A stretch of DNA of 64,000 nucleotides, from NCBI GenBank assembly GCA_000710935.1, contig BAYV01000010.1:1-64000 (forward strand), in the 5' to 3' direction. The notes below the pieces were generated by a model. It was given only the letters and a program-made list of their open reading frames with translations, searched no databases and was not told the origin of the DNA. This stretch comes from Iodidimonas nitroreducens (GTDB taxonomy: Bacteria > Pseudomonadota > Alphaproteobacteria > Sphingomonadales > Rhodothalassiaceae). Positions 5,721 through 19,637 of this stretch are shown here, in pieces (position 1 is the first letter of the stretch; each line of letters starts with the position of its first letter). A program made the translations under genes and the position numbers.

Positions 5721-6890
5721 ATGAAACGCGATACCCAGATCATTGAAGCCGGACGCCGGTCTGATTGGACCCATGGCATTGTCAATCCGCCTGTTTTTCG
5801 GGCATCGACCTGCCTTTTTGAAACCATGGATGATCTGCGGGCGGGGATCAAAAATCCTGATGCCAAGCTTTTTTATGGCCGCCGGGGCACCCCCACCCAT
5901 TGGGCCTTGCGCGATGCCATCACCCAATTGGAAGGGGGCGTGGATAGCTGGCTTTATCCATCGGGCATGGCGGCCATCGCCGGGTCTATATTGGCTGTGG
6001 TGGCAAGCGGCGATCATATCCTGGTCACCGATAGTGTTTATGAACCCACCCGGGCTTTATGTGATCATATGCTCAAACGTTTCGGTATCGAAACAACATA
6101 TTATGATCCCTGCATTGGGGCTGGATTCGCTGAGCTTTTCAAGAAAAACACCAAACTTGTGGTGACCGAATCCCCCGGTTCATTGACCTTGGAAATCCAG
6201 GATCTGCCCGCCATCTGTGCCATTGCCCATGATCATGATGCTTTGGTGCTTTTGGATAATACCTGGGCCACCCCCCTCAATATGAAGGCGCTGGAGCTGG
6301 GTATTGATATTTCGGTTCATGCCGCCACCAAATATATTGTTGGCCATTCCGATGTGATGCTCGGCATTGCCACGGCCAATGCCCGGGCCTGGCCAAAGCT
6401 GCAACAGGGCGCGGTGCAATTGGGGCAAACCACCAGCCCTGATGATGCATGGCTTGCTCTGCGCGGGCTTAGAACCCTGCCCATTCGCTTGAAGCAGCAT
6501 GAAAAAAGCGCGCTCCAGATTGCCCACTGGCTGCAAAAGCACCCCATGGTTGATCGCGTGCTGCATCCAGCCCTGCCTGAAATGCCGGGCCATGACCTTT
6601 TCAGGCGAGATTTCACCGGCTCCTGCGGTCTGTTTTCCTTTATCTTAAAGCAGGGCAGCTATCAGCAGATCGATCATTTTGTTGATGATATGCGCCTGTT
6701 TAAGCTTGGTTTTTCATGGGGCGGTTTTGAAAGCCTGATCCTGCCCACCGATCCCGCACGGGTGCGCAGCGCCACCCGATGGCAGGCTATGGGCCCCCTT
6801 GTAAGGCTTCACATCGGCCTTGAAGATCCCGATGATCTGATTGATGATCTGGCTGCGGGCTTTGAGCGGTTTGAAAAGGCTATCGCTTAA
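5721..6890 (+). CDS. metC: Cystathionine beta-lyase MetC
   Basis: This PLP enzyme cleaves cystathionine to homocysteine, pyruvate and ammonia in methionine biosynthesis. The 389-residue protein belongs to the Cys/Met metabolism (fold type I) family. YGRRGTPTH (52-60) supplies phosphate-binding residues from the partner subunit, LLDNTWATP lies at 177-185, and the PLP lysine is K204 in HAATKYIVGHSD. The stop overlaps the stop of the convergent DUF502 gene by four bases. Cystathionine gamma-lyase or gamma-synthase activity cannot be ruled out, but the motif around K204 fits beta-lyase better. Confidence 0.9.
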   Translation: MKRDTQIIEAGRRSDWTHGIVNPPVFRASTCLFETMDDLRAGIKNPDAKLFYGRRGTPTHWALRDAITQLEGGVDSWLYPSGMAAIAGSILAVVASGDHILVTDSVYEPTRALCDHMLKRFGIETTYYDPCIGAGFAELFKKNTKLVVTESPGSLTLEIQDLPAICAIAHDHDALVLLDNTWATPLNMKALELGIDISVHAATKYIVGHSDVMLGIATANARAWPKLQQGAVQLGQTTSPDDAWLALRGLRTLPIRLKQHEKSALQIAHWLQKHPMVDRVLHPALPEMPGHDLFRRDFTGSCGLFSFILKQGSYQQIDHFVDDMRLFKLGFSWGGFESLILPTDPARVRSATRWQAMGPLVRLHIGLEDPDDLIDDLAAGFERFEKAIA

Positions 6891-7552
6891 GGTGCAGACG
6901 ATTTTGCGGCTTCTGATGGGCGCTTGTTCGGGCTGGCAAGGGGTAATTCCGACGGGCTAACCAAGCCGGCCGAAATGATATATTTGATCGCCTGTTCGAT
7001 GGTCATATCCAGATAGATACAATCACTTTTTCTCACAAACAGCAAAAATCCCGAGGTGGGATTGGGCGTTGTGGGCAGAAAAACATTCAGCATATCTTCC
7101 TTGGCGGTTTTCTGCTGAATTTCATTGGTGGTGTTCGACGAAACAAAGGCAATCGCCCATAAACCCGGGCGCGGATATTCGATCATCACCACATCGCGGA
7201 AGGTGGTGGAGCTTTGCGCCATCACCGTTTGGGCAATCTGTTTCACCGTTGTGTAAATACCGCGAATGACCGGCGTCCGCTCCACCAGCGCTTCGCCAAG
7301 CCTGATCAGGGATCGGCCGAGAAAATTGGCGGCCAGTGCCCCCAGCATGGTGAGAAAGACAAAAGTGATGAAAAGCCCGATACCGGGGATATTCACCGCC
7401 AGGTAGGTTTCAGGATTATAAGCCGTGGGCAAAAGACCGCGAACAAAGCCATCGATGCCCCCGATCACCTTCCAGGTCAGAAAAATCGTGATGGAAATGG
7501 GCGCAAAGACAACGAGCCCAGCAAGAAAATACGTCCTCAGCCGATGCCACAC
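6887..7552 (-). CDS. DUF502 family inner-membrane protein
   Basis: A 221-residue protein of the DUF502 family, whose function is not established. Two hydrophobic segments near residues 8-28 and 55-80 would anchor it in the inner membrane, followed by a soluble region with the family's SxxRDVVMIEYPRPGLWAIAF-like stretch around 115-140. The start appears to be GTG at 7552. It lies 42 bases downstream of the GNAT gene of the lipid locus on the same strand and could be the last gene of that transcript. Its link to lipid export is only by position. Confidence 0.85.
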   Translation of the reverse strand: MWHRLRTYFLAGLVVFAPISITIFLTWKVIGGIDGFVRGLLPTAYNPETYLAVNIPGIGLFITFVFLTMLGALAANFLGRSLIRLGEALVERTPVIRGIYTTVKQIAQTVMAQSSTTFRDVVMIEYPRPGLWAIAFVSSNTTNEIQQKTAKEDMLNVFLPTTPNPTSGFLLFVRKSDCIYLDMTIEQAIKYIISAGLVSPSELPLASPNKRPSEAAKSSAP

Positions 7553-7594: not shown

Positions 7595-8743
7595 TTATAG
7601 CAGTGATTTCTGATAGATTCGATAGGTCTTGTAGATTTCACAGCCAATCTCGTCGAGAATATTTCGCATGCCAAAATTATCTTCCAAAATCCAGGATAAT
7701 TCCGCCCATCGCGCCCCCCGGCGCACCACATCGCGGCGAGTATGTTCGATCATCATCAGTGCCAATGCTGCGGAATAGCGGCTTTTTTGCATGATCTTGC
7801 GCACACCCATCAGGGGAACCCGTAATCGTTTCGGATAGGATATGAATAATCCGCTGAGCAATCGCAGCCACCCCAAAGGAAGGAGCCTGCCATTAAAGGA
7901 GCGCAAAACCATATTCACATCCGGCAAGGTGACAAACATCCCCATGGGCTTTCCATCCACCTCGCATAGGCGCACACGATGCGGGGCAACGATCGGTTTG
8001 ATGTCCTGCGCCAGATGGGTGGCTTCTTCTGCCGTCAGGGGCACAAAGCCCCAATTATCCGACCAGGCATCATTATAAATATCGATGATCTTATGCAATT
8101 CATCCTGATAGCGTCGCATATCGATCTGGCGCAGGGTAATTTTTTCATTCTGCTCAACCGTTTTGATAAAGCGCGCCAAGCGGGGCGGCAAAGGCTTGAG
8201 CAGATCAAGCTCATAAGCCAATAAATCCTTTGCCTTCGCATAGCCCAAAGCCATTAAATGCTTTTGGTAATAAGGCCGGGCATGGCCCATCATCAAAACC
8301 GGCGGGGTATCAAACCCATCCACCAAAAGCCCGCATTCGCCATTGCTCGATAGATTATAGGGCCCCTCAATCCGCGTGCAGCCTGCGGCCTTCAGCCAAT
8401 CTTCGGCCTTGCCCAGCAAGGTGGCAAAAACCGCGCGATCATCGATGGCTTCGATCATGCCGAAATGGCCGATGCTGTCGCCCCTGTGCTTTTGTGCCAA
8501 TTGATCGATCTGGGCACTGATCCGCCCCACCGGGCGACCATTTTTCCAAGCAATCCAATAGGCAGCCCGGGCATGATCGAAATAGGGATTTTTGGTGCGA
8601 TCCAAAAGCGCCAGACGTTCGATCATCAATGGCTTCACCCAGCAGGGGTCCTGCGCATAGATTTCTTCGGCAACCCGAATGAATGTTTTAAGGTCTTTTT
8701 TCGCCTTCACTTCGGATAAAGCGATGGCTCCATATAATGACAT
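7595..8743 (-). CDS. bcerS: GNAT-family N-acyltransferase, probable bacterial ceramide synthase
   Basis: This 382-residue protein belongs to the large GNAT-fold group once mislabelled as dATP pyrophosphohydrolase. In Caulobacter a member of this group N-acylates the sphingoid base and was named bacterial ceramide synthase (bCerS). Supporting features are the early RVAEEIYAQDPCWVKPL and GPYNLSSNGECGLLVDGFD blocks, and a second GNAT-like half with ALMMIEHTRRDVVRRGARWAELSWILEDN-type sequence near residues 330-355. The locus contains serine palmitoyltransferase, an acyl carrier protein and a ceramide-reductase-like SDR, which supports the assignment. It would acylate the sphinganine amine with a fatty-acyl donor. 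It lies 37 bases after the flippase gene in the same transcript. The assignment rests on family and neighbourhood, without an alignment. Confidence 0.75.
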   Translation of the reverse strand: MSLYGAIALSEVKAKKDLKTFIRVAEEIYAQDPCWVKPLMIERLALLDRTKNPYFDHARAAYWIAWKNGRPVGRISAQIDQLAQKHRGDSIGHFGMIEAIDDRAVFATLLGKAEDWLKAAGCTRIEGPYNLSSNGECGLLVDGFDTPPVLMMGHARPYYQKHLMALGYAKAKDLLAYELDLLKPLPPRLARFIKTVEQNEKITLRQIDMRRYQDELHKIIDIYNDAWSDNWGFVPLTAEEATHLAQDIKPIVAPHRVRLCEVDGKPMGMFVTLPDVNMVLRSFNGRLLPLGWLRLLSGLFISYPKRLRVPLMGVRKIMQKSRYSAALALMMIEHTRRDVVRRGARWAELSWILEDNFGMRNILDEIGCEIYKTYRIYQKSLL

Positions 8744-8780: not shown

Positions 8781-10349
8781 TCAATGAAGCCCGCGCCGCG
8801 CAAAACGTGCAAGCCGCCCGAGCGCTTTGGCATCAGGGGCCGATAAACCATATCGGAGAAAAGCAAGAATACTCAAGACGAGGAGCATCAAAAGCACGAG
8901 GATTTGAACGGGCGCGAGCGTATTTTTCAGTAAAACCCCTGCAGTGAACAAGATAAGTGATAAACAAATAGAAACAAATAAAGGCTTCAACATTTCTTTA
9001 CTATAGGGCCATAGACGGGAGAGAAAATAAACCTCGATCAATGCCACGCCCCGGCTGAGAATAAGGCCCGCCGCCGCTGCCAGCGCCGCCCCTGCCGGGC
9101 CATGGCTTTCCACCAGCAGATAAAGCAGCCCAAGCATCGCCAGCAAACCAAACAGGCCATTGCCCAATGTCCAATAAGTTGAGGACAGGCTGCGGACCAT
9201 GGCCGGGGCCTGTCCGAAAAAGAAGGTGAGCAATCGCCCCAGAACCAGAATAACCAGCGCCACCGCCGCGGGTTCGGATTCAGGCCCCAGCATATCAAGC
9301 AAGGCATGATGGCTGCCCACCATGGCACCGGCCAAAATCACCCCAAAGGCAACCATCAGGCGGGTTGAATAGGCATACATATCCGCAAGGGTTTCGCGAT
9401 CCCCCCGCCCTTTTTGGAAAGCCGCAAGGGGTGCCACCACATAATCAAAGCTATTGTGGATCACCTGCATAACACTGGAAAGCTTACGGGCGATGGAATA
9501 AAAGCCCGCCGCCGAAGCGCCCGCAGCGCCCGGAATGATGATATTGAGCACCAGCACCGGAAATTCTGAAAAAATGCGCTGGATCAGGGTTGCAGGCATC
9601 ATCGGCAGGGCAAAATGCAGCATGGCTTTAGCAAGCTTTGGATCATAGCCAGCCATGAACAAGCGCTTATAATCATAAAAGCGGGCGACCAGAAAAAACG
9701 ACAGAAGGGCCGCAATGGCCAAAGACAGTATATGCGCCAGAAAAAGCCCATAAATGGTGAAACCGGCAAAGGCTAAACCAACCGCAATCAGAATACGCAA
9801 AATCTGTTCGTAGAAAAACCTGATCCTGATTTCCGGCCCGAATTTCCGCCGCGATCTCACACTGGCGGTCAGCACTTCAACACTGGTCCAAAGCGGCAGG
9901 GTCACGGCATAAAGGCGGATCACCGTCACGATATGCTGGTTATCCTCGCCATTGCCATTGATCATCTGCGCCAGCAGCGGCGCATAGATGATCAAGAAAA
10001 GCGCGCCGATGATCCCCGCACCCATAGTGATGACAAGGGCAATCGCCAAAGTGCGGTGGATCACATCTTCATCATCATAAGACGGGATAAAGCGCTGCAA
10101 AGCCACATCCATGCCCATCTGCGTCACCCCGCTGGCCATGCGCACAATGGCATAAAGGGTGGCAAACAAGCCAAAGGTGACAGACCCATAAAGCCACAAA
10201 AAGATCGGAAATCCAGCCGCTTCAACCAAAGCCCCCATCCGCCCGAGCAAGGCAAGCCCCGCGCCTCGGGTCATTTCCTTTCTGGATTGATCCTGCCCCG
10301 CCCGGCTCGGCGCGGACTCCTCCGCGCCGGATGGACCGCCCTTTTTCAT
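8781..10349 (-). CDS. Wzx/MATE-like lipid or oligosaccharide flippase
   Basis: This polytopic protein of 522 residues has about 12-14 hydrophobic segments and the layout of polysaccharide-biosynthesis (Wzx, MOP superfamily) flippases, which move lipid-linked substrates across the inner membrane. The first 30 residues are hydrophilic. The ATG at 10355 overlaps the stop of the LptG-like gene as ATGA. The ATG at 10349 has GAGGA at a better distance and is preferred. Neighbours are LptF/G-like permeases upstream and the ceramide-synthase-like gene downstream. A plausible role is to flip a sphingolipid or a glycosylated derivative, but an O-antigen-type substrate is also possible. Confidence 0.8.
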   Translation of the reverse strand: MKKGGPSGAEESAPSRAGQDQSRKEMTRGAGLALLGRMGALVEAAGFPIFLWLYGSVTFGLFATLYAIVRMASGVTQMGMDVALQRFIPSYDDEDVIHRTLAIALVITMGAGIIGALFLIIYAPLLAQMINGNGEDNQHIVTVIRLYAVTLPLWTSVEVLTASVRSRRKFGPEIRIRFFYEQILRILIAVGLAFAGFTIYGLFLAHILSLAIAALLSFFLVARFYDYKRLFMAGYDPKLAKAMLHFALPMMPATLIQRIFSEFPVLVLNIIIPGAAGASAAGFYSIARKLSSVMQVIHNSFDYVVAPLAAFQKGRGDRETLADMYAYSTRLMVAFGVILAGAMVGSHHALLDMLGPESEPAAVALVILVLGRLLTFFFGQAPAMVRSLSSTYWTLGNGLFGLLAMLGLLYLLVESHGPAGAALAAAAGLILSRGVALIEVYFLSRLWPYSKEMLKPLFVSICLSLILFTAGVLLKNTLAPVQILVLLMLLVLSILAFLRYGLSAPDAKALGRLARFARRGLH

Positions 10350-10351
10350 GC

Positions 10352-11473
10352 TCATTCCTCGGAATAGAAAATAACGGCGAGCCCGAGGCTTGTAAAAATC
10401 AGCATCGGGCCAAAAGCCGCCAGAAAGGCAGGTGCGGCCCCGAATTTCCCCATCGCCAGCATGAAATTATCCGCCACGAAAAAAGCAAAGCCAAGCCCCA
10501 TCCCGGCAGCCACGCGGGCAAAGATTTTGCCGCCCCTTTGCACCCCGAAACCTGCAATCGCCCCCAAAATCGGCATCAACAAAGTGGCGAGCGGACCGGC
10601 AATTTTTTGATAAAGGGCGGCTTGCAGTTCCGCCACGGGCTTGCCTTCCAGTTTTAATTGATCAATCTGTTCCTCCAAGCGGCTGAAAGAAAGCTGTTCG
10701 GGGATCACGCGCAAGGAAAAAAACCGTTCCGGTGGGGATTGCAGGGTCCAGGGCAAAGATGGCTCGGTGGTGATAGCGTGGGTTTCAGCATCAAAGCGGC
10801 GCACGGCATATAAGGTCCAGGCGCCATCGGTATGCCATGCAAAATCGGCCCGCACGATCCCGGCAAGCTGGCCTTGATCATTGCGCTGATAGATCGTCAC
10901 CTTATCCAGAATGACCCGGCTGCCCGATCGGCTGACCGCCTTCACCAAAACCAGCGCATTGCCATCCACCAGCCACAGATCATCAAGAATATCGGGTGCA
11001 GGGGGCAGATCAGACGCATAATCAAAGCGCTTCCAATATTCCAGTTCCGCCGTGGAAGGTGCCACCAGCTTTTGATCGAGAATGAAATGCACCACAGAAA
11101 TCGCTGCTGATGCCAGCAATAAAGGCAGCAAAATGCGGTGCGCCGACATGCCCGACGCCTTCATCACCACAATCTCGCTATGCTGGGAAAGGCTTGATAA
11201 GGTCAAAAGCACGGCAAGCAGCGCGCTGAAGGGAATGAAGCGGCTGAGCAATTCGGGAAAGCGCAGGCCGATATAGCGCCATAATTCTGCATCGCCATTG
11301 CCCGGCGCGGCCAGAATGGCATCGGATTGCGCCAGCAGATCCAGCATCTGCAACACCACCACAACCCCGATGACAAGCCCCAGAAAGCGGACGAAAAAAA
11401 CCTTGCCAATATAGCGCCCCATGGTGCGGGACGGCAGAAAATAGCGCCGCAATGGCCGCAAAATGCTCATCAT
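10352..11473 (-). CDS. LptG-like permease (YjgP/YjgQ family)
   Basis: A 373-residue member of the LptF/LptG family. In the LPS exporter these proteins form the inner-membrane core that, with the LptB ATPase, extracts lipid into a periplasmic bridge. Six membrane segments are evident, three before and three after a periplasmic beta-rich domain (about residues 120-270). EIVVMKASGMSAHRI, near residue 100, is the cytoplasmic coupling-helix region typical of the family. The ATG at 11473 overlaps the stop of the LptF-like gene as TGATG, with AAGGG just upstream; an alternative start at 11515 is less likely. It may be the cell's general LPS exporter or, given the genes around it, a paralogue dedicated to sphingolipids. 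Confidence 0.85.
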   Translation of the reverse strand: MMSILRPLRRYFLPSRTMGRYIGKVFFVRFLGLVIGVVVVLQMLDLLAQSDAILAAPGNGDAELWRYIGLRFPELLSRFIPFSALLAVLLTLSSLSQHSEIVVMKASGMSAHRILLPLLLASAAISVVHFILDQKLVAPSTAELEYWKRFDYASDLPPAPDILDDLWLVDGNALVLVKAVSRSGSRVILDKVTIYQRNDQGQLAGIVRADFAWHTDGAWTLYAVRRFDAETHAITTEPSLPWTLQSPPERFFSLRVIPEQLSFSRLEEQIDQLKLEGKPVAELQAALYQKIAGPLATLLMPILGAIAGFGVQRGGKIFARVAAGMGLGFAFFVADNFMLAMGKFGAAPAFLAAFGPMLIFTSLGLAVIFYSEE

Positions 11474-12777
11474 CAAGCCCTTTTCATGGCCGCGAAAACC
11501 TGCCGCACCGGCCACAGGATCACTTCAAAGCCGCGATCGATGATCCCGGCGGCCCCGCGCCCGGGGCGGATCACCGAAGACCAGAATAAAAAGCCGCTGA
11601 AGCCCGCAAAAAGTGCAAATGGCCCCCATAAGGCGAGATAAGGGGACATGCCATCAAACCCCACCAATCTTTCCCCGGCTTCCAGAAATTCGTTAAACAC
11701 AATCAGCCCGGATAATCCGGCAACCAGCCCCCCGGCCCCACCGGTTCGTTTATTGGCCAGGCCCAAAGGCGCCGCCAGAAAGGGAATGACCAGCAAAATC
11801 ATAATATTGATCACCCGCCAATGATAGGTCGCCCGATAGCGCTGCTGCATGGTTTGTGCATCGGATTGCACACTCTTTTTTTCCGATGATCGGCCCATAT
11901 CCTGAGCCGCCGCGCCATTGGGTGCGATGCCCTTGTTTGGCTGCACATTCGTGGCAGCGGTTTGGGGCATGATGCCGTGCATGGCCCAATAAAGTTCGGG
12001 CAGGGTCATTTCCAATTCCTCGCCACCCCGGCGGCGAAATTCCTCGATTTCGGGCAGATTGATGACAATGTCTTGGGATTCAAAGGATAAAACACGGGGC
12101 TTTATCTTACCCGGATCAAAATCGATCAGCCGTCCATCATAAAGCCGCAACAAAACCGTTTGCGTATTATTGGTGGCAAAAAAAGCGCCCCGCTTGGCGG
12201 TAGCAACGATTTCTTCCGCGCTTCCCACCCCACGTCGGAGAAAAATATCCTTCAGTTCCTGCCCATCGGATTGGGTGCCGCCAACCCGCAGCAACAGGCC
12301 ATCCGACAAGGACACAAATTCCCCAACATCGACGCTGGCCCCCAAAGCCCCACTGCGCAGTTCGAAATCCAGATGCCGATATTCATAGCGGCTATGGGGC
12401 TGCACAAAACCCAAAAGGCCAAATTCAAGCAAAGCCAGAAACAGGCTCAAAAAAACCATCGGACGCACCAATCGGGGCAAGCCGGCACCGCTGGCCATCA
12501 TGCCATCAAGCTCGCTATTCAAGGATAAGGTGCGAAATGCCAGCAAAGTGCCTAGAAACAACCCAACCGGCAAAGCCATTCCCATATAATGAGGCACAAG
12601 ATGCGCCAGCATCTGCCATACGATATCGATGGGGCCATTTTCATTGACCACGAAATCGAACAAACGCAGCATCCGCTCCAGCAAAAGCAGGGCGGCAGTA
12701 ATGACTACGGTGGATAGCAGGGGCACGACCGCCTTGCGCAACACATAATGATCAAGACGGCTAAATCCTGGCAGCAT
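11473..12777 (-). CDS. LptF-like permease (YjgP/YjgQ family)
   Basis: A 434-residue partner of the downstream LptG-like protein, with the same six-helix layout. SELDGMMASGAGLPRLVRP, around residues 88-106, is the coupling region. Its periplasmic domain carries an extra hydrophilic insertion near residues 270-315 (QTAATNVQPNKGIAPNG and following) that is unusual for LptF. The ATG at 12777 has AAGGGGG about six bases upstream; a longer form from 12798 lacks such a site. It is the first gene of the minus-strand arm that continues through the flippase and ceramide-synthase-like genes. No LptB, LptC, LptD or LptA gene is visible nearby. Confidence 0.83.
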   Translation of the reverse strand: MLPGFSRLDHYVLRKAVVPLLSTVVITAALLLLERMLRLFDFVVNENGPIDIVWQMLAHLVPHYMGMALPVGLFLGTLLAFRTLSLNSELDGMMASGAGLPRLVRPMVFLSLFLALLEFGLLGFVQPHSRYEYRHLDFELRSGALGASVDVGEFVSLSDGLLLRVGGTQSDGQELKDIFLRRGVGSAEEIVATAKRGAFFATNNTQTVLLRLYDGRLIDFDPGKIKPRVLSFESQDIVINLPEIEEFRRRGGEELEMTLPELYWAMHGIMPQTAATNVQPNKGIAPNGAAAQDMGRSSEKKSVQSDAQTMQQRYRATYHWRVINIMILLVIPFLAAPLGLANKRTGGAGGLVAGLSGLIVFNEFLEAGERLVGFDGMSPYLALWGPFALFAGFSGFLFWSSVIRPGRGAAGIIDRGFEVILWPVRQVFAAMKRA

Positions 12778-13152: not shown

Positions 13153-14148
13153 ATGCGGCAACAATCTTTTTCAGCAACAAGCCACCGGCCCTCGCAGGCC
13201 CTGATCGGTATCATCTCCAATTGTGTAAGCAGCACCAATCGCGAGCAGCTTGACCGCGTGCGGACAGTGATCGGTAAAAGCCCGCATCTGTTTCATTATG
13301 AATTCGACGATATCAACGCCCTGCCCGAAGGCCTGCAATTAATGGCCGATGCCGGTGTTGCCCTGCTCATCATCAATGGCGGCGATGGCACCATTCAGGC
13401 AACGCTCACCCATATCATCAATGATCGGCCCTTCACCATCATTCCCCCCATCGCCATTCTGCCCGGCGGCAAAACCAATCTCATTGCCGATGATCTGAAA
13501 TGCAAAGGCAGCCCGGCCAGCGTGCTCAAGCGCGTGATCAAAACCGTGCGCCGAGGCAAATTAAAAAAACATCTGGTTGAACGAAATCTGATCGCCCTTG
13601 ATCTGGCGGATGGAAAGCCCCCTCGCTATGGGATGTTTTTTGGCGGTGCTGCGGTGATCAAAGGTATTTTATGGAGCCGCACCCATATCCATCAAAGCAA
13701 AGTTCCCACCCGCTTTGGCCATGCTCTGGCAATTATTCGGCTGATTTTAAAGGCCGCTTTCAGCAATGAGGCGTCGCCCTTGCGCTCGGGCCAAACCACG
13801 ATCACTATGGGTGATGAACAGCGTTATGATGGCGAATTTTATCTCATCCTCGTCACCACCCTCTCCCGGCTGATGCTGGGTTTGCGTCCCTTTGGCCGAG
13901 ACGGCAATGGGGGATTGAAAACCGCAATCATCGATTCCCGGCCCAAAGTGATGCGCCAAGCCTTGCTGGCCCTTCTGACCCGCCGTTTTCATCAGGGAAA
14001 AGTAGCCGGGGTTTATACCGCGCGCACCGATCATATGCTGATCGATGGGGATGATCCGGTGACCCTGGATGGGGAAATCTATACCCCCACCCCGGGCAAA
14101 CCGATCCACCTTGATTGCGAAAAATCATTGAATTTTTTACGCCTCTAG
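13153..14148 (+). CDS. Diacylglycerol-kinase-family lipid kinase, candidate ceramide kinase
   Basis: A 331-residue protein of the DAGK catalytic / NAD-kinase-like superfamily. The glycine-rich nucleotide motif is INGGDGTIQATL at residues 74-85, followed by ILPGGKTNL at 102-110, in the position of the PxGTxND element of YegS and DgkB. It would phosphorylate a lipid hydroxyl at the inner face of the cytoplasmic membrane. In Caulobacter a kinase of this family in the sphingolipid locus makes ceramide 1-phosphate. Here it sits between the ceramide-synthase arm and the serine-palmitoyltransferase arm, so ceramide is the best guess for substrate. The Tam41-like gene starts 15 bases downstream. Confidence 0.78.
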   Translation: MRQQSFSATSHRPSQALIGIISNCVSSTNREQLDRVRTVIGKSPHLFHYEFDDINALPEGLQLMADAGVALLIINGGDGTIQATLTHIINDRPFTIIPPIAILPGGKTNLIADDLKCKGSPASVLKRVIKTVRRGKLKKHLVERNLIALDLADGKPPRYGMFFGGAAVIKGILWSRTHIHQSKVPTRFGHALAIIRLILKAAFSNEASPLRSGQTTITMGDEQRYDGEFYLILVTTLSRLMLGLRPFGRDGNGGLKTAIIDSRPKVMRQALLALLTRRFHQGKVAGVYTARTDHMLIDGDDPVTLDGEIYTPTPGKPIHLDCEKSLNFLRL

Positions 14149-14163
14149 GGCCATAAACCGGCC

Positions 14164-15177
14164 ATGAACACATCACTGACAAGGACCAACCCCCATCCAT
14201 CGGCGGGTTCCAATGCCGATCAGCGGCTGGAAAGCCTGATTGCCGCCGAATTATGCCGCCCGCAGCCCGAAGCGGTGTTGGCCGCCGCCCGCCATGCTGC
14301 AGCCCGGCTTCAGGGGGCGGATGCTGAACGATCCTGCGTTTTGGGTGTTTTATTTTATGGATCATGTCTGCGCACCGGGCTTTTAACCGACAAAATCCTC
14401 GATTTTTATGTGATCGTCAGCGATTATCCCTCAGCTTATGATAAACGCTGGCTGGCCGCAGCCAATCAATGGCTGCCCCCCAATGTTTTTTATGATGAAT
14501 GCCAATATGATGGCCAGATCATCCGCAGCAAATACAATATCATCAGCCGCGATCATCTCCATCAACTGGTCCGCCCCGAATGCCGCACCGTTTCTTTATG
14601 GGCGCGCTTTGCCCAGCCTTTGGCGCTGCTCATCCCCCGCGATGATCGGGTGCTGCCCGATATGACCAAAGCGGTGGCGCAGGCCATTCGCACCACATTG
14701 GGGGCCACCCTGCCCCTGTGCAGCCATGGGGATGGGCCGGATCGGATTTGGCCCAAAGCTTTTTCCCATACATATGGCGCCGAATTGCGATCCGAACCGC
14801 CCGGCAAGGGCGCAGAGCTTTATGCACTGGATGCCACGCGCTATCAGCGCTTTTTTGCACCGGCGCTTGATGGTTTGGGCATCGCTTATGGCCGCGATGA
14901 AAACGGCAAGCCCATCATGGCCCAAAAATTTTCAGAGTCCGCCCGGGGCCGGGCCCGGCGCGCCTGGGCGCAGCGGCGGATGGCTGGCAAGATCATTACT
15001 TTCCTGCGCCTGATCAAGGCCAGCGCCACCTTTGATGGCGGCATCGATTATCTGGCCTGGAAGATCGAGCGCCATTCAGGCGTGAAGCTGGTCGTCAGCC
15101 CGTGGCAACGGCGGCATCCCGTGCTTGCGGGGCTTTTGCATTTTCTGAAGCTGAAGCGGCGCGGAGCTTTTCGTTGA
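14164..15177 (+). CDS. Tam41-like (mitochondrial-type CDP-DAG synthase) nucleotidyltransferase
   Basis: A 337-residue protein with a nucleotidyltransferase-like signature: FYGSCLR at 64-70 followed by KILDFYVIV at 77-85. This resembles the GSG...D-x-hydrophobic motif of mitochondrial Tam41 CDP-diacylglycerol synthase. The resemblance is motif-level only. If it holds, the enzyme would join CTP to a phosphorylated lipid, and the kinase gene 15 bases upstream suggests ceramide 1-phosphate as that lipid. Similar genes, labelled phosphatidate cytidylyltransferase, occur in the Caulobacter region for ceramide phosphoglycerate. The last 83 bases overlap, on the opposite strand, the 3' end of serine palmitoyltransferase. 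Confidence 0.65.
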   Translation: MNTSLTRTNPHPSAGSNADQRLESLIAAELCRPQPEAVLAAARHAAARLQGADAERSCVLGVLFYGSCLRTGLLTDKILDFYVIVSDYPSAYDKRWLAAANQWLPPNVFYDECQYDGQIIRSKYNIISRDHLHQLVRPECRTVSLWARFAQPLALLIPRDDRVLPDMTKAVAQAIRTTLGATLPLCSHGDGPDRIWPKAFSHTYGAELRSEPPGKGAELYALDATRYQRFFAPALDGLGIAYGRDENGKPIMAQKFSESARGRARRAWAQRRMAGKIITFLRLIKASATFDGGIDYLAWKIERHSGVKLVVSPWQRRHPVLAGLLHFLKLKRRGAFR

Positions 15178-16369
15178 GCGGCAATTGAAGGGTGTGTGCC
15201 GCCGCCTTGAAGGCCTCCAGAATGCGATCCACCTGATCAGCGCTATGCCCGGCACCTAAGCTGCACCGCAAAAGATAAAGCCCCGTAGGCGTTGCGGGTG
15301 GGCGGGCAACATTCACATAAACCCCTTCCAGCAGCAAAGCCCGGCACATGCCAAAAAGCTGATCCTGCGTTTCCAGACACACCGCAACAATCGGGCTTTC
15401 AACGCTTTCGGTACCCAAATTAAAGCCCAGCTTTTTCAGCCCGCCATGCAGGCGTTCCACATTGCCCCACAGATGCGCCCGCTTGTTATGCGCATTTTTT
15501 AACGAGCGAATGGAACTGATCGCCGACGCCACCACCGATGGCGGAAGCGATGCGGTGAACATATAAGGGCGGCAGGCAAAGCGCAGCACCTCGAATTTCG
15601 GGTGGTTTGAAAGGCAAAAACCCCCCACAGTGCCAACACTTTTGGAAAAGGTGCCGACGATGAAATCGACCTGATCCTCAACCCCCAATTCCTGCGCCAC
15701 ACCGCGCCCGGTTTCGCCGCAAAAACCCATGGAATGCGCTTCATCCACCAGAACCTGCGCGCCGGCCGCCTTGGCCACCGCGATCAATTCACGCAATGGC
15801 GCGCGATCCCCCAGCATCGAATAAATGCCTTCCAGCACTACGAGCTTGGCGCTCTCGGCTGGCAGCCTTTTCAGGCGCTTTTCCAAATCCTCGACACTAT
15901 TATGGCGGAAACGCAGCACATCCGCATTGCCCATGGCGCAGGCATCATAGATCGAGGCATGGCTATCGGCATCGATGATCACATAATCGCCCCGCCCGGC
16001 CAAGGTGGAGATCATCCCCAGATTGGCCTGATAGCCGGTGGTAAAGACCATGGCATGATCCATGCCGTAAAAATCCATCAGCGCCTGTTCCAGCGCTTTA
16101 TGGCCCTGATAGGTGCCATTCAGAATACGGCTGCCGGTGGTGCCGGTACCAAAGGCATCCAAGGCATCCTTCGCGGCTTCGATGGCATCGGGATCAAAGG
16201 TCATGCCCATATAATTATTGGTGCCGGCCAAAATGATCTTGCGACCGCCGATCATCGCTTCGGTGGCCGAAAGCATCTCATCCATCACGATATTCAAGGG
16301 ATCGGGCTGGCTATCGCCCATCCGGGCGCGCTCGGCGATAAGGGGATCAAATTTATCGAGCAAATCCAT
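15095..16369 (-). CDS. spt: Serine palmitoyltransferase
   Basis: Serine palmitoyltransferase condenses serine with a fatty-acyl thioester to 3-ketosphinganine, the first step of sphingolipid synthesis. This 424-residue alpha-oxoamine synthase has LAGTNNYMG at 48-56, GTGTTGSRILNGTYQGH at 74-90, DEAHSMG at 209-215 and the PLP lysine K243 in GTFSKSVGT. 8-amino-7-oxononanoate synthase and glycine C-acetyltransferase share this fold. The adjoining acyl carrier protein and ceramide-type genes favour SPT. The ATG at 16369 lies seven bases after the ACP stop and has AAAGG upstream; a longer reading from 16405 would run into the ACP gene. The C-terminal tail of about 25 residues is low-complexity and is the part overlapped by the convergent Tam41-like gene. 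Confidence 0.88.
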   Translation of the reverse strand: MDLLDKFDPLIAERARMGDSQPDPLNIVMDEMLSATEAMIGGRKIILAGTNNYMGMTFDPDAIEAAKDALDAFGTGTTGSRILNGTYQGHKALEQALMDFYGMDHAMVFTTGYQANLGMISTLAGRGDYVIIDADSHASIYDACAMGNADVLRFRHNSVEDLEKRLKRLPAESAKLVVLEGIYSMLGDRAPLRELIAVAKAAGAQVLVDEAHSMGFCGETGRGVAQELGVEDQVDFIVGTFSKSVGTVGGFCLSNHPKFEVLRFACRPYMFTASLPPSVVASAISSIRSLKNAHNKRAHLWGNVERLHGGLKKLGFNLGTESVESPIVAVCLETQDQLFGMCRALLLEGVYVNVARPPATPTGLYLLRCSLGAGHSADQVDRILEAFKAAAHTLQLPLNEKLRAASASENAKAPQARDAAVATG

Positions 16370-16376
16370 GAGATGA

Positions 16377-16634
16377 TTACCTTTTGATGATCTTTTCGAC
16401 AGCATCGCTCAATTGCTGAATGGTTTCCAGATCGGGCAACATATTCAAGGGCAAAACAATATCAAACTCATCCTCGATGGCCGCAACCAGATCCATCACC
16501 GTCAGTGAATCGAAATCAAGATCATTGGCAAAGCTTGTGGCCGGGAAAAGCGACACATCTTTCTGATTGAAAGGGGCAACGATCTTGCAAATACGCTCAT
16601 AGATGTCTTTGTTGGTCAAATCTTTATTGCTCAT
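16377..16634 (-). CDS. Dedicated acyl carrier protein
   Basis: An 85-residue acyl carrier protein. The phosphopantetheine attachment serine is S43 in NDLDFDSLTVMDLV. The body is acidic and helical, as expected. The ATG at 16634 follows GAGGA; the longer frame to 16703 adds an unrelated 23 residues. Its stop is seven bases from the serine palmitoyltransferase start. In Caulobacter the equivalent ACP next to spt supplies the acyl chain. Here the fatty acyl-AMP ligase encoded two genes upstream is the likely loader. Confidence 0.9.
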   Translation of the reverse strand: MSNKDLTNKDIYERICKIVAPFNQKDVSLFPATSFANDLDFDSLTVMDLVAAIEDEFDIVLPLNMLPDLETIQQLSDAVEKIIKR

Positions 16635-16747
16635 CGCTGCATGGTCCTCATCAAATATCAAAATATCAGCCGCGCCAAAATGCCCTTTGGCAAAGCCAGC
16701 CACTGCCCTTCATGCCATATAAAGGCCCTAAGCTGAAAAAAACAGGG

Positions 16748-17797
16748 CTAATCGCCCCGCTTCAGCCAAGCCAGGGTCTCAGCCAGCCCGGCCTTAAAAT
16801 CGCGCGGGCGCGGCATAAGATCGGCCAAAGCCGGTGGCAAGGGCCGCGCCACCCAATCCCCATGGGCCAATTCGCGCATCTTGCCACGGCTGATGATCAG
16901 CGGCTGACCGCTCAGCTTTGAAAAAGCGTCCCCAGCACCGCCGATCAGCGACAAAAGCCCCTTTGGCACCGGCACTGCCCGCACCCGCCGCCGCAAAAGC
17001 GCTGACAAAATAGCCGCCAGATCCCGATAATCATAGCCGCCCCGCCCATCAGCCCCGCAGGCTTGATCATCGATCTCCCATATGCTGCCCGACCAGAACG
17101 CGGCATCGCCCAGATTAGCGCTTTCGCCGCTTACCTGTTTGGCAAGGGCGCATAGAAATGCGGCAAGATCAGGGGCATAAATCAGGGAAACCCGATGATC
17201 AACTGCAATCGGTGCGGGCAAAAAGCCGCCTCTGGCTGTGCGGATGAGCTTCAAAATCTCCACATCCCCCGGCCCGTAAATGCCCGGCGGGCGCAGGATT
17301 AATCGCCGCAATGCTGTTGCCGGGCCTTCCAGCAAAAGCTGCTCTGCGGCCTGTTTGCTGGCAGCATAGGGGGAAAGATGCGGATGCCGAGCCGCCAAGC
17401 TTGACACATGAATGATCCGCGCCTGCGGTGCTTTTTTGACAATCGCCGCCAAAAGTCTTGCTGTTCCATCGCGATTGGTGACCATGAAATCCGATGCCCG
17501 CCGCGCCTTCACCAGCCCTGCCAGATGCAGCACCAGATCGGACCCATCCACCAAAGCTTCAAGGGCTGCGGACTGCTCCAATGAGCCGGTGATCCAGCGC
17601 ACATGAGCCGACATTGCCTGCCCGGGAGGAGGCGCAGACCGCGCCAAAGCACGAACATCAAAACCGGCATCAACCAAGGCGGCAATCAGATGGCGGCCTA
17701 AAAACCCGGTTCCACCCGTGACCGCAACCCTTTTCGGATGCGGACCTGTGGGGGAGACGGAAGACACCGAACCCCCGGGATCAGTATGCAAGGGCAA
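16748..17797 (-). CDS. cerR: Extended-SDR NAD(P)-dependent reductase, candidate ceramide reductase CerR
   Basis: A 349-residue extended short-chain dehydrogenase. The Rossmann glycine motif is VTGGTGFLG at 26-34, and the catalytic YAASK appears near residue 149. In Caulobacter the homologously placed protein, annotated as an epimerase, reduces the 3-keto group after N-acylation and is called CerR. The gene overlaps the 3' end of the acyl-AMP ligase gene by 17 bases if translation begins at the TTG at 17797. A GTG at 17767, after a G-rich stretch, is an alternative start that would remove the overlap. Nucleotide-sugar epimerase activity is the main alternative and is less likely in this context. 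Confidence 0.75.
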   Translation of the reverse strand: MPLHTDPGGSVSSVSPTGPHPKRVAVTGGTGFLGRHLIAALVDAGFDVRALARSAPPPGQAMSAHVRWITGSLEQSAALEALVDGSDLVLHLAGLVKARRASDFMVTNRDGTARLLAAIVKKAPQARIIHVSSLAARHPHLSPYAASKQAAEQLLLEGPATALRRLILRPPGIYGPGDVEILKLIRTARGGFLPAPIAVDHRVSLIYAPDLAAFLCALAKQVSGESANLGDAAFWSGSIWEIDDQACGADGRGGYDYRDLAAILSALLRRRVRAVPVPKGLLSLIGGAGDAFSKLSGQPLIISRGKMRELAHGDWVARPLPPALADLMPRPRDFKAGLAETLAWLKRGD

Positions 17798-19637
17798 TAA
17801 GGCTGCCAGCCAGAAACTGCTGCCGTGCTTTCGACCGGCTCAGTTTGCCCGATGAGGTGCGCGGCAAGGAACGCGGCTGCACCAGTTCGATCCGGCACTG
17901 CACGCCCGTAACGCTAAGAATCTGCTTTTTGATCTGTTCGACAAAAGCCTGACGTTCATGGCTTTCGCGCAAGCGGCATTGGACCAGAACGGTGGCGATT
18001 TCCAGATGATCGGGGCCGGGTAAAGACAAAGCGGCCACATCGCCACTACGTACCCCGGCCAATTGCTCCACCGCCCATTCGATATCCTGCGGCCAATGAT
18101 TGCGACCATTGATGATGATCATATCCTTGGCGCGACCAATCACATAAAGCGCGCCTTCGCCCATATAGCCCATATCGCCGGTATCGAGCCAGCCACTTTC
18201 CGATAAAACCGCCGCCGTGGTATCGGGATCGCCAAAATATTCGGTCATCACACTGGCGCCGCGCACATAGATACGGCCAATTTCGCGTTCATTCAAAACG
18301 GCGCCATCCTCATCGCGGATTTCAATGTCATATTCCGGCAAAGGAATGCCGCAATTAACGATCTCGCGATAGCGGGTGCCTTGGGATTCATGATGTTTGA
18401 GCGCCGCCCCCGCAGCCCCCCGCAGGGCCTCGGATGTGGCCTCAAAATGCCGGGCAACCCTGATGCTGCCGTCATATTCGCCCGACAACACCCGCTCATC
18501 GACCAGATCCACCTCCATCCCCCGGCCGATTGGCGCGAAGCTCACCGCAAGGGTGCATTCCGCAAGGCCATAGCTGGGCACGAAGGTAGTGGGCTTGAAT
18601 CCCGCCGGACCATAGATATCGGCAAAGCGGCGGATCACTTCAGGGCGGATCATATCGCCCCCGATCCCCGCCACCCGCCAGGCCGAGAGATCGAGTTCCT
18701 TCAGCTGATCATTGCCCACCCGCCGGGCGCAGATATCATAGCCAAAGCTGGGGCTATAGGTGATGGTGCCGCGATTGCGCGACATCAGGCCAAGCCATTG
18801 CATCGGCCGTCTGGCAAAATCTTCAGTGGCCAGAAAATCAACCGAAACCTGATTGGCAATCGGCGTGAGCAAGGTGCCCACAAGGCCCATATCATGGTAA
18901 AAAGGCAGCCACGAAATGCAGCGATCATCATCGATAAGCTGCACACCATCCCGGCCCTGGCCCGCACAATTGGCCATCAGGGCCTTATGGGTGATGGCAA
19001 TACCATGGGGAAAACGCGTGGAGCCGGAAGAATATTGCAAATAGGCAAGGCTACCCGCCATGGGCCGGATCGGCTGGCCATCGCTATCGGCAAAAGGCCC
19101 ATCCAGATCAACCGGCAAAGCATCGAAATCTTCATAAGAGCCACAGAATTTAAGGCCCAATCCGGCAGAAGCCGCTTTGCCGAAATCATCCATGGCATCA
19201 GGGCCGATGATGGCGCTGGCCCGGCAGCTTTCCATTTGGGTATGCAATTGGCTGATATAGCCATCCCGGCCGCCAAAAGACGTAGGCAAAGGCAAGGGCA
19301 CCGGCAGCACTGTGGCATATTGGCAGCCGAGAAAAAAGGCAACGAAATCAACATGGGTAACGGCGATCAAAGCCACCCGGTCACCCGGCGCAAATCCCAT
19401 CGCGATCAGCTTGCGGCCAATTTTTTCCGCCCGCACTCGCAAATCCGCATAGCGCGCCGAGACCAGAAGGTCCCCGCGTGCCGAATAAAAATTCACCCCG
19501 CGCGCGCCCAAGGCAGCATATTCCAAAGCATCGATCAGGGTCGGAAAATCACCAAAACGACGCGGAAGATCATCCTGCGTCGGGGTTGGCAATGCCTCTG
19601 TCGCGCCATGGGTTTCTTTTAAAGCCGTCAAATTCAA
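17781..19637 (-). CDS. Fatty acyl-AMP ligase (FadD/FAAL family)
   Basis: A 618-residue adenylate-forming enzyme that activates a fatty acid as acyl-AMP and can pass it to an acyl carrier protein. The P-loop motif AYLQYSSGSTRFPHG lies at 198-212, and the D-rich WLDTGDMGYM motif lies near 485. The YSSGSTRFP form, with an arginine after GST, is typical of FAAL/FadD-like ligases found with lipid and polyketide genes. Translation most likely begins at TTG 19637, with GAGG about seven bases upstream. It is the first gene of the arm that continues to the reductase, ACP and serine palmitoyltransferase, so loading that ACP is its probable job. Confidence 0.88.
   Translation of the reverse strand: MNLTALKETHGATEALPTPTQDDLPRRFGDFPTLIDALEYAALGARGVNFYSARGDLLVSARYADLRVRAEKIGRKLIAMGFAPGDRVALIAVTHVDFVAFFLGCQYATVLPVPLPLPTSFGGRDGYISQLHTQMESCRASAIIGPDAMDDFGKAASAGLGLKFCGSYEDFDALPVDLDGPFADSDGQPIRPMAGSLAYLQYSSGSTRFPHGIAITHKALMANCAGQGRDGVQLIDDDRCISWLPFYHDMGLVGTLLTPIANQVSVDFLATEDFARRPMQWLGLMSRNRGTITYSPSFGYDICARRVGNDQLKELDLSAWRVAGIGGDMIRPEVIRRFADIYGPAGFKPTTFVPSYGLAECTLAVSFAPIGRGMEVDLVDERVLSGEYDGSIRVARHFEATSEALRGAAGAALKHHESQGTRYREIVNCGIPLPEYDIEIRDEDGAVLNEREIGRIYVRGASVMTEYFGDPDTTAAVLSESGWLDTGDMGYMGEGALYVIGRAKDMIIINGRNHWPQDIEWAVEQLAGVRSGDVAALSLPGPDHLEIATVLVQCRLRESHERQAFVEQIKKQILSVTGVQCRIELVQPRSLPRTSSGKLSRSKARQQFLAGSLIALAY

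Follow-up and report, generated by a model that had tools for sequence, protein, structure and literature searches.

LptF and LptG are inner-membrane proteins that normally extract lipopolysaccharide (LPS) from the inner membrane. What does such a pair do when it stands among sphingolipid genes in a bacterium that appears to make no LPS? The question is raised by positions 10,352 to 12,777 of the window, that is, the whole stretch of 64,000 nucleotides analyzed here. We propose that the pair is a sphingolipid-type inner-membrane extractor of the Lpt system, and that the LPS-type pair, formerly located between pepA and lptD, disappeared together with lipid A; we put the probability of this reading at roughly 0.78.

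The pair and its sphingolipid locus

The features of the locus are as follows.

6887..7552, minus strand: DUF502 membrane protein at the end of the gene string that starts with lptF (Pfam, 3.8e-35; same position after cerS in several relatives)
7595..8743, minus strand: bacterial ceramide synthase, CerS-like, GNAT fold (44% identity to yghO near spt in E. coli BL21)
8781..10355, minus strand: flippase-like polysaccharide/lipid transporter overlapping lptG (Pfam Polysacc_synt, 2.5e-14)
10352..11476, minus strand: lptG, sphingolipid-type (LptG2-like) permease (Pfam, 1.3e-69; full-length match to LptG chains; AlphaFold model matching LptG structures; sphingolipid clade, 100/100)
11473..12777, minus strand: lptF, sphingolipid-type (LptF2-like) permease (PF03739, 3.6e-62; nearest PDB chains are LptF; sphingolipid clade, 100/100)
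13153..14148, plus strand: lipid kinase, probable ceramide kinase at the CpgB place (Pfam DAGK_cat, 4.7e-10; gene order as in CC_1162-1161-1160, PMC11324152)
14164..15177, plus strand: nucleotidyltransferase with a Tam41 fold at the CpgC place (AlphaFold model, VIA-align Z 17.6 to Tam41)
15095..16405, minus strand: serine palmitoyltransferase, spt (NCBIfam serine palmitoyltransferase models, E 4.6e-196 and 5e-186)
16377..16703, minus strand: acyl carrier protein, AcpR-like (Pfam PP-binding)
16748..17797, minus strand: NAD-dependent epimerase/reductase, CerR-like (Pfam Epimerase)
17781..19637, minus strand: acyl-ACP synthetase, AasR-like (Pfam AMP-binding; NCBIfam fatty acyl-AMP ligase)

The preliminary description recognized an LptF/LptG-like pair inside a sphingolipid locus, and both halves of that statement hold. 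PF03739 (LptF_LptG) covers the two ORFs end to end, scoring 235 and 211 bits (cut-off, 27.9), and the ORFs adjoin the spt/cerS genes. The PDB chains and NCBIfam models identify the upstream ORF as LptF-like and the downstream ORF as LptG-like. The AlphaFold model of LptG (pLDDT 82) matches LptG chains and shows the membrane helices, with a periplasmic β-jellyroll between the third and fourth. With a score exceeding its cut-off, the NCBIfam equivalog TIGR04408 labels LptG (10352-11476) a permease for LPS export, despite a genome without LpxC. Automatic annotation therefore assigns LPS export to a protein whose host has no LPS pathway, and the protein is easily misread.

The pair was also described as heading a transcript with a flippase and a ceramide-synthase-like gene. 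The string itself is tightly coupled: the lptF stop and lptG start have one common base (TGATG), the lptG stop overlaps the start of the flippase gene (ATGA), and 37 bases separate the flippase from cerS, which is followed after a short gap by the DUF502 gene. From this coupling, lptF, lptG, the flippase, and cerS probably share one transcript. A scan upstream of lptF for a promoter and a terminator found neither.

Divergent from this string are the lipid kinase and nucleotidyltransferase genes, followed by spt, acpR, cerR, and aasR. A Pfam search with the nucleotidyltransferase (14164-15177) gave no family; the best match of its model is Tam41 (Z 17.6), and the next, unrelated fold scores Z 6.5. 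Tam41 is a CTP-dependent CDP-DAG synthase. By analogy to this fold, the protein may form CDP-ceramide from ceramide phosphate. The window order spt, nucleotidyltransferase, lipid kinase equals that of spt, CC_1161 (CpgC), and CC_1160 (CpgB, ceramide kinase) in Caulobacter (PMC11324152, PMC12275187, PMC10331486). Judged from the gene order and the fold, the likely product is ceramide phosphoglycerate or an anionic lipid like it.

Lpt and lipid A genes in the genome, the order, and the class

In the source genome (3.08 Mb), PF03739 has exactly two matches, both in the window, which thus holds the only LptF/LptG pair. The other components are retained, with one match each for LptD (at C93) and LptC and an lptC-lptA-lptB-rpoN string at C101. 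Profile searches of this genome for LpxC and LpxB gave no match, and the lipid A pathway is judged absent on these two enzymes.

These results bear on the earlier suggestion that the pair is a paralogous exporter for anionic sphingolipids, for which a second lptF/lptG pair near lptD was to be sought. No second pair exists in the source genome, where pepA and lptD adjoin without one. The suggestion was to count as refuted if these were the sole copies and the genome had its normal set of LPS genes; because the LPS genes are absent, this is not the situation here. The sphingolipid part of the idea gains support from the absence of LpxC and LpxB and from the separate branch of sphingolipid-locus proteins described below, and the lack of the second pair is explained if the LPS pair was lost along with LPS.

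The same pattern extends over the order. LpxC and LpxB were each found in 0 of 120 genomes, with positive control searches, and LptF/LptG is present in 111 of the 120, usually as one pair. In named relatives (Iodidimonas, Kordiimonas, and sphingomonads), wherever the locus is long enough to judge, the pair almost always lies with ceramide genes such as cerS or spt. The closest named relative is Iodidimonas muriae, with an LptG of 74% identity.

LptFG, LpxC, and Spt were then compared in 86 alphaproteobacterial genomes, one per family. Spt and LptFG occur without LpxC in eight of them, with one pair in each (8/8). The pair is near spt in seven; in the eighth (G176), it lies on another contig beside cerS, a kinase, and a nucleotidyltransferase. 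Four genomes have both Spt and LpxC: three (G135, G136, and G188) carry extra copies, with one pair by sphingolipid genes, and G175 has an LPS-type pair only. Of the genomes with neither LpxC nor Spt, four are without LptFG and LptD as well, and two exceptions (G160 and G163) retain LPS-type LptFG.

The survey also bears on the strongest alternative, that the pair feeds the Lpt bridge with some other surface lipid, such as a glycolipid or a polysaccharide-linked lipid, and that its place in the locus reflects shared regulation only. Some LPS-less genomes do keep the sphingolipid locus without lptFG. Three from one family (G009, G022, and G037; loci L190, L191, and L192) retain spt, cerS, and lptD, and lptFG is gone from the locus, with no copy detected elsewhere in these genomes; in the first two (L190 and L191), the gap holds a small protein that may carry a signal peptide. 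A single-contig alphaproteobacterial genome of 5.4 Mb (G166, L174) has spt and cerS and is missing LpxC, LptFG, and LptD. These four genomes indicate that sphingolipid makers can do without the pair, and the three of one family weaken any claim that it is required. Against another lipid, however, stand the association with spt/cerS in several families and orders and the concomitant absence of LptFG and LptD from the four genomes mentioned above, which have neither LpxC nor Spt. We consider this alternative unlikely and return to a sphingolipid substrate below.

Two clades of LptF and LptG and their distinguishing residues

In a first tree of 140 LptF and LptG proteins, Caulobacter LptF2/LptG2 not among them, each half (LptF and LptG) consists of a sphingolipid-locus clade and an LPS clade. 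Careful separate trees of LptF and LptG recovered this split with 100/100 support and in all bootstrap trees, so that the YjgP/YjgQ proteins of sphingolipid loci form their own branch, as the preliminary description had proposed to check. The LPS clade comprises the alphaproteobacterial copies of the pepA-lptF-lptG-lptD locus. G135 and G188, LPS-positive genomes of which the tree includes both pairs, each contribute one pair to each clade. The window pair lies inside the sphingolipid clade with L105, L107, and L110, which are the sphingolipid-locus copies of genomes also holding an LPS pair. The clade does not merely track position, since in a genome of the same family (G013; L112 and L197) a sphingolipid-type pair sits away from the spt locus.

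An ordinary LPS-type pair might instead have moved into the sphingolipid locus and been repurposed upon the loss of LPS, as its status as the sole copies in the genome and the LptG score above the NCBI LPS-export cut-off would allow. Both window proteins, however, belong to a clade that excludes every LPS-type copy (100/100 in both trees), and LPS-positive genomes hold both types; such a transfer is thus very improbable. The proposed loss of the LPS-type pair corresponds to a gap at pepA-lptD. In about 30 LPS-type loci, the gene order is pepA, lptF, lptG, lptD, surA, pdxA, and ksgA. In the source genome, pepA is directly followed by lptD, surA, pdxA, and ksgA; the interval from pepA to lptD measures about 100 bases, and no remnant of lptFG was found in it. 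Seven other LPS-less genomes have the identical gap, making eight in total. On a tree of PepA, KsgA, PdxA, and SurA, a quick tree with several weak branches, the missing pair corresponds to four changes, of which at least three are forced by well-supported branches. The LPS-type pair therefore appears, from these sequences, to have been lost separately at least three times. That an LPS pair and lipid A genes exist but are missing from the assembly (108 contigs, 98.73% complete) has a negligible chance, as two same-genus genomes rated 100% complete give the same outcome, LpxC and LpxB are absent throughout the 120 genomes of the order, and pepA and lptD are contiguous without the pair.

The two types of LptG also differ at one site.

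11318..11323, minus strand: LptG D52-A53, at the end of helix 1, at the place of the LPS-type basic pair (E. coli K40-K41)

In LPS-bound structures, K40 and K41 of LptG contact the 4'-phosphate and the inner core (PMC6744409). They are not essential, as K40E/K41E still allows growth of E. coli (PMC5548808). Of 34 alphaproteobacterial LPS-type LptG proteins, 32 have Arg at the K40 place and 30 have Arg or Lys at the K41 place. In sphingolipid-type LptG, the K40 place is basic in 1/27 and the K41 place is Lys in 5/27. Among copies not used to find the pattern, the K40 place is basic in 0/77 from the order and in 6/8 LPS copies. The LptG model locates this charge-switch site near the end of helix 1. 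Residue 53 (11318-11320) is Lys or Arg in sphingomonads and mostly Asp, Asn, or Glu in Kordiimonas and its relatives; this pattern may follow the lipid head group, and it also follows ancestry. The LPS contacts that have been tested best are K34 and R136 of E. coli; they were rejected as markers because alphaproteobacterial LPS-type LptG proteins are without them too.

LptF carries a further peculiarity, which the preliminary description had noted as an unusual hydrophilic insertion near residues 270-315.

11869..11973, minus strand: private hydrophilic insertion of LptF, residues about 269-303 (71 residues vs 30-48 in all other aligned LptF)

The insertion is real. Nevertheless, the alignment shows it to be missing in I. 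muriae and other close relatives, and it was therefore rejected as a functional mark of the group; it is a loop private to the source genome.

Proposed role and comparison with known systems

An LPS-less genome that keeps only the sphingolipid-linked LptF/LptG suggests that the same bridge now moves sphingolipids. In the proposed mechanism, the sphingolipid-type LptF/LptG would extract sphingolipid from the inner membrane into the Lpt bridge. The bridge of LptB/C/A/D, formerly that of LPS, would then carry it to the cell surface. The LPS-type pair once between pepA and lptD would have been dropped upon the loss of lipid A. The substrate, the direction of transport, the use of the common LptB/C/A/D, and a role of the flippase are all predicted from sequence comparison. 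More broadly, alphaproteobacteria may have two old Lpt extractors, for LPS and for sphingolipid, on one bridge; several lineages would have independently dropped the LPS extractor along with LPS and would now use the bridge for sphingolipid, and the charge switch at the end of LptG helix 1 would account for part of the selectivity. We regard the odds of this wider scheme as even. LPS-less bacteria with a sole sphingolipid-type pair offer a clean natural system for Lpt transport without LPS.

The route of bacterial sphingolipids to the outer membrane has been called unknown (PMC11324152). The same 2024 paper named CC_1168, CC_1156, and CC_1155 of Caulobacter LptC2, LptF2, and LptG2, suggested them, as a proposal only, to be phosphosphingolipid movers, and listed S. 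wittichii and Z. mobilis as carriers of orthologues of this cluster. The idea of an Lpt system for sphingolipids is therefore not new. Of the literature searched on Lpt in sphingomonads and LPS-less alphaproteobacteria, only this paper was relevant. None of the papers searched was found to describe a separate clade, a recurrent disappearance of the LPS pair from between pepA and lptD, or a charge switch in LptG; these three points are new here.

LptF/LptG of E. coli K-12 resemble the window pair in fold, in the arrangement of the pair, and in the presence of LptB/C/A/D partners in the genome. They differ in sequence (21-28% identity) and at K40/K41, which are Asp and Ala here; in addition, the lipid A pathway is absent here, and the window pair belongs to a clade apart from the alphaproteobacterial LPS-type proteins.

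E. coli BL21(DE3) has a second lptG-lptF pair beside spt (ECD_RS14850 and ECD_RS14855), and its LptG has Asp-Asp at the K40-K41 place. Membership of this spt-linked pair in the sphingolipid-type clade is not supported, as the tree groups it with LptF/LptG of K-12, although a common sphingolipid clade is also compatible with the data (AU p 0.27). The BL21(DE3) pair (L206:29921-32067) is annotated as LPS export and is carried by 4060 of 5426 complete E. coli genomes.

The glycosphingolipid loci of sphingomonads are comparable in that these bacteria are LPS-less and have their sole pair in the spt-cerS locus, whereas most of the loci are without the flippase and the kinase and Tam41-like genes. 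Caulobacter crescentus has lipid A, an LPS-type pair, and LptC2, in contrast to the single pair, the one detected LptC, and the absence of LpxC/LpxB in the source genome. Its LptF2/LptG2 are likened to the window pair by gene neighborhood: there, too, cerS and spt accompany a second-type pair, and a flippase gene is close by (PMC11324152).
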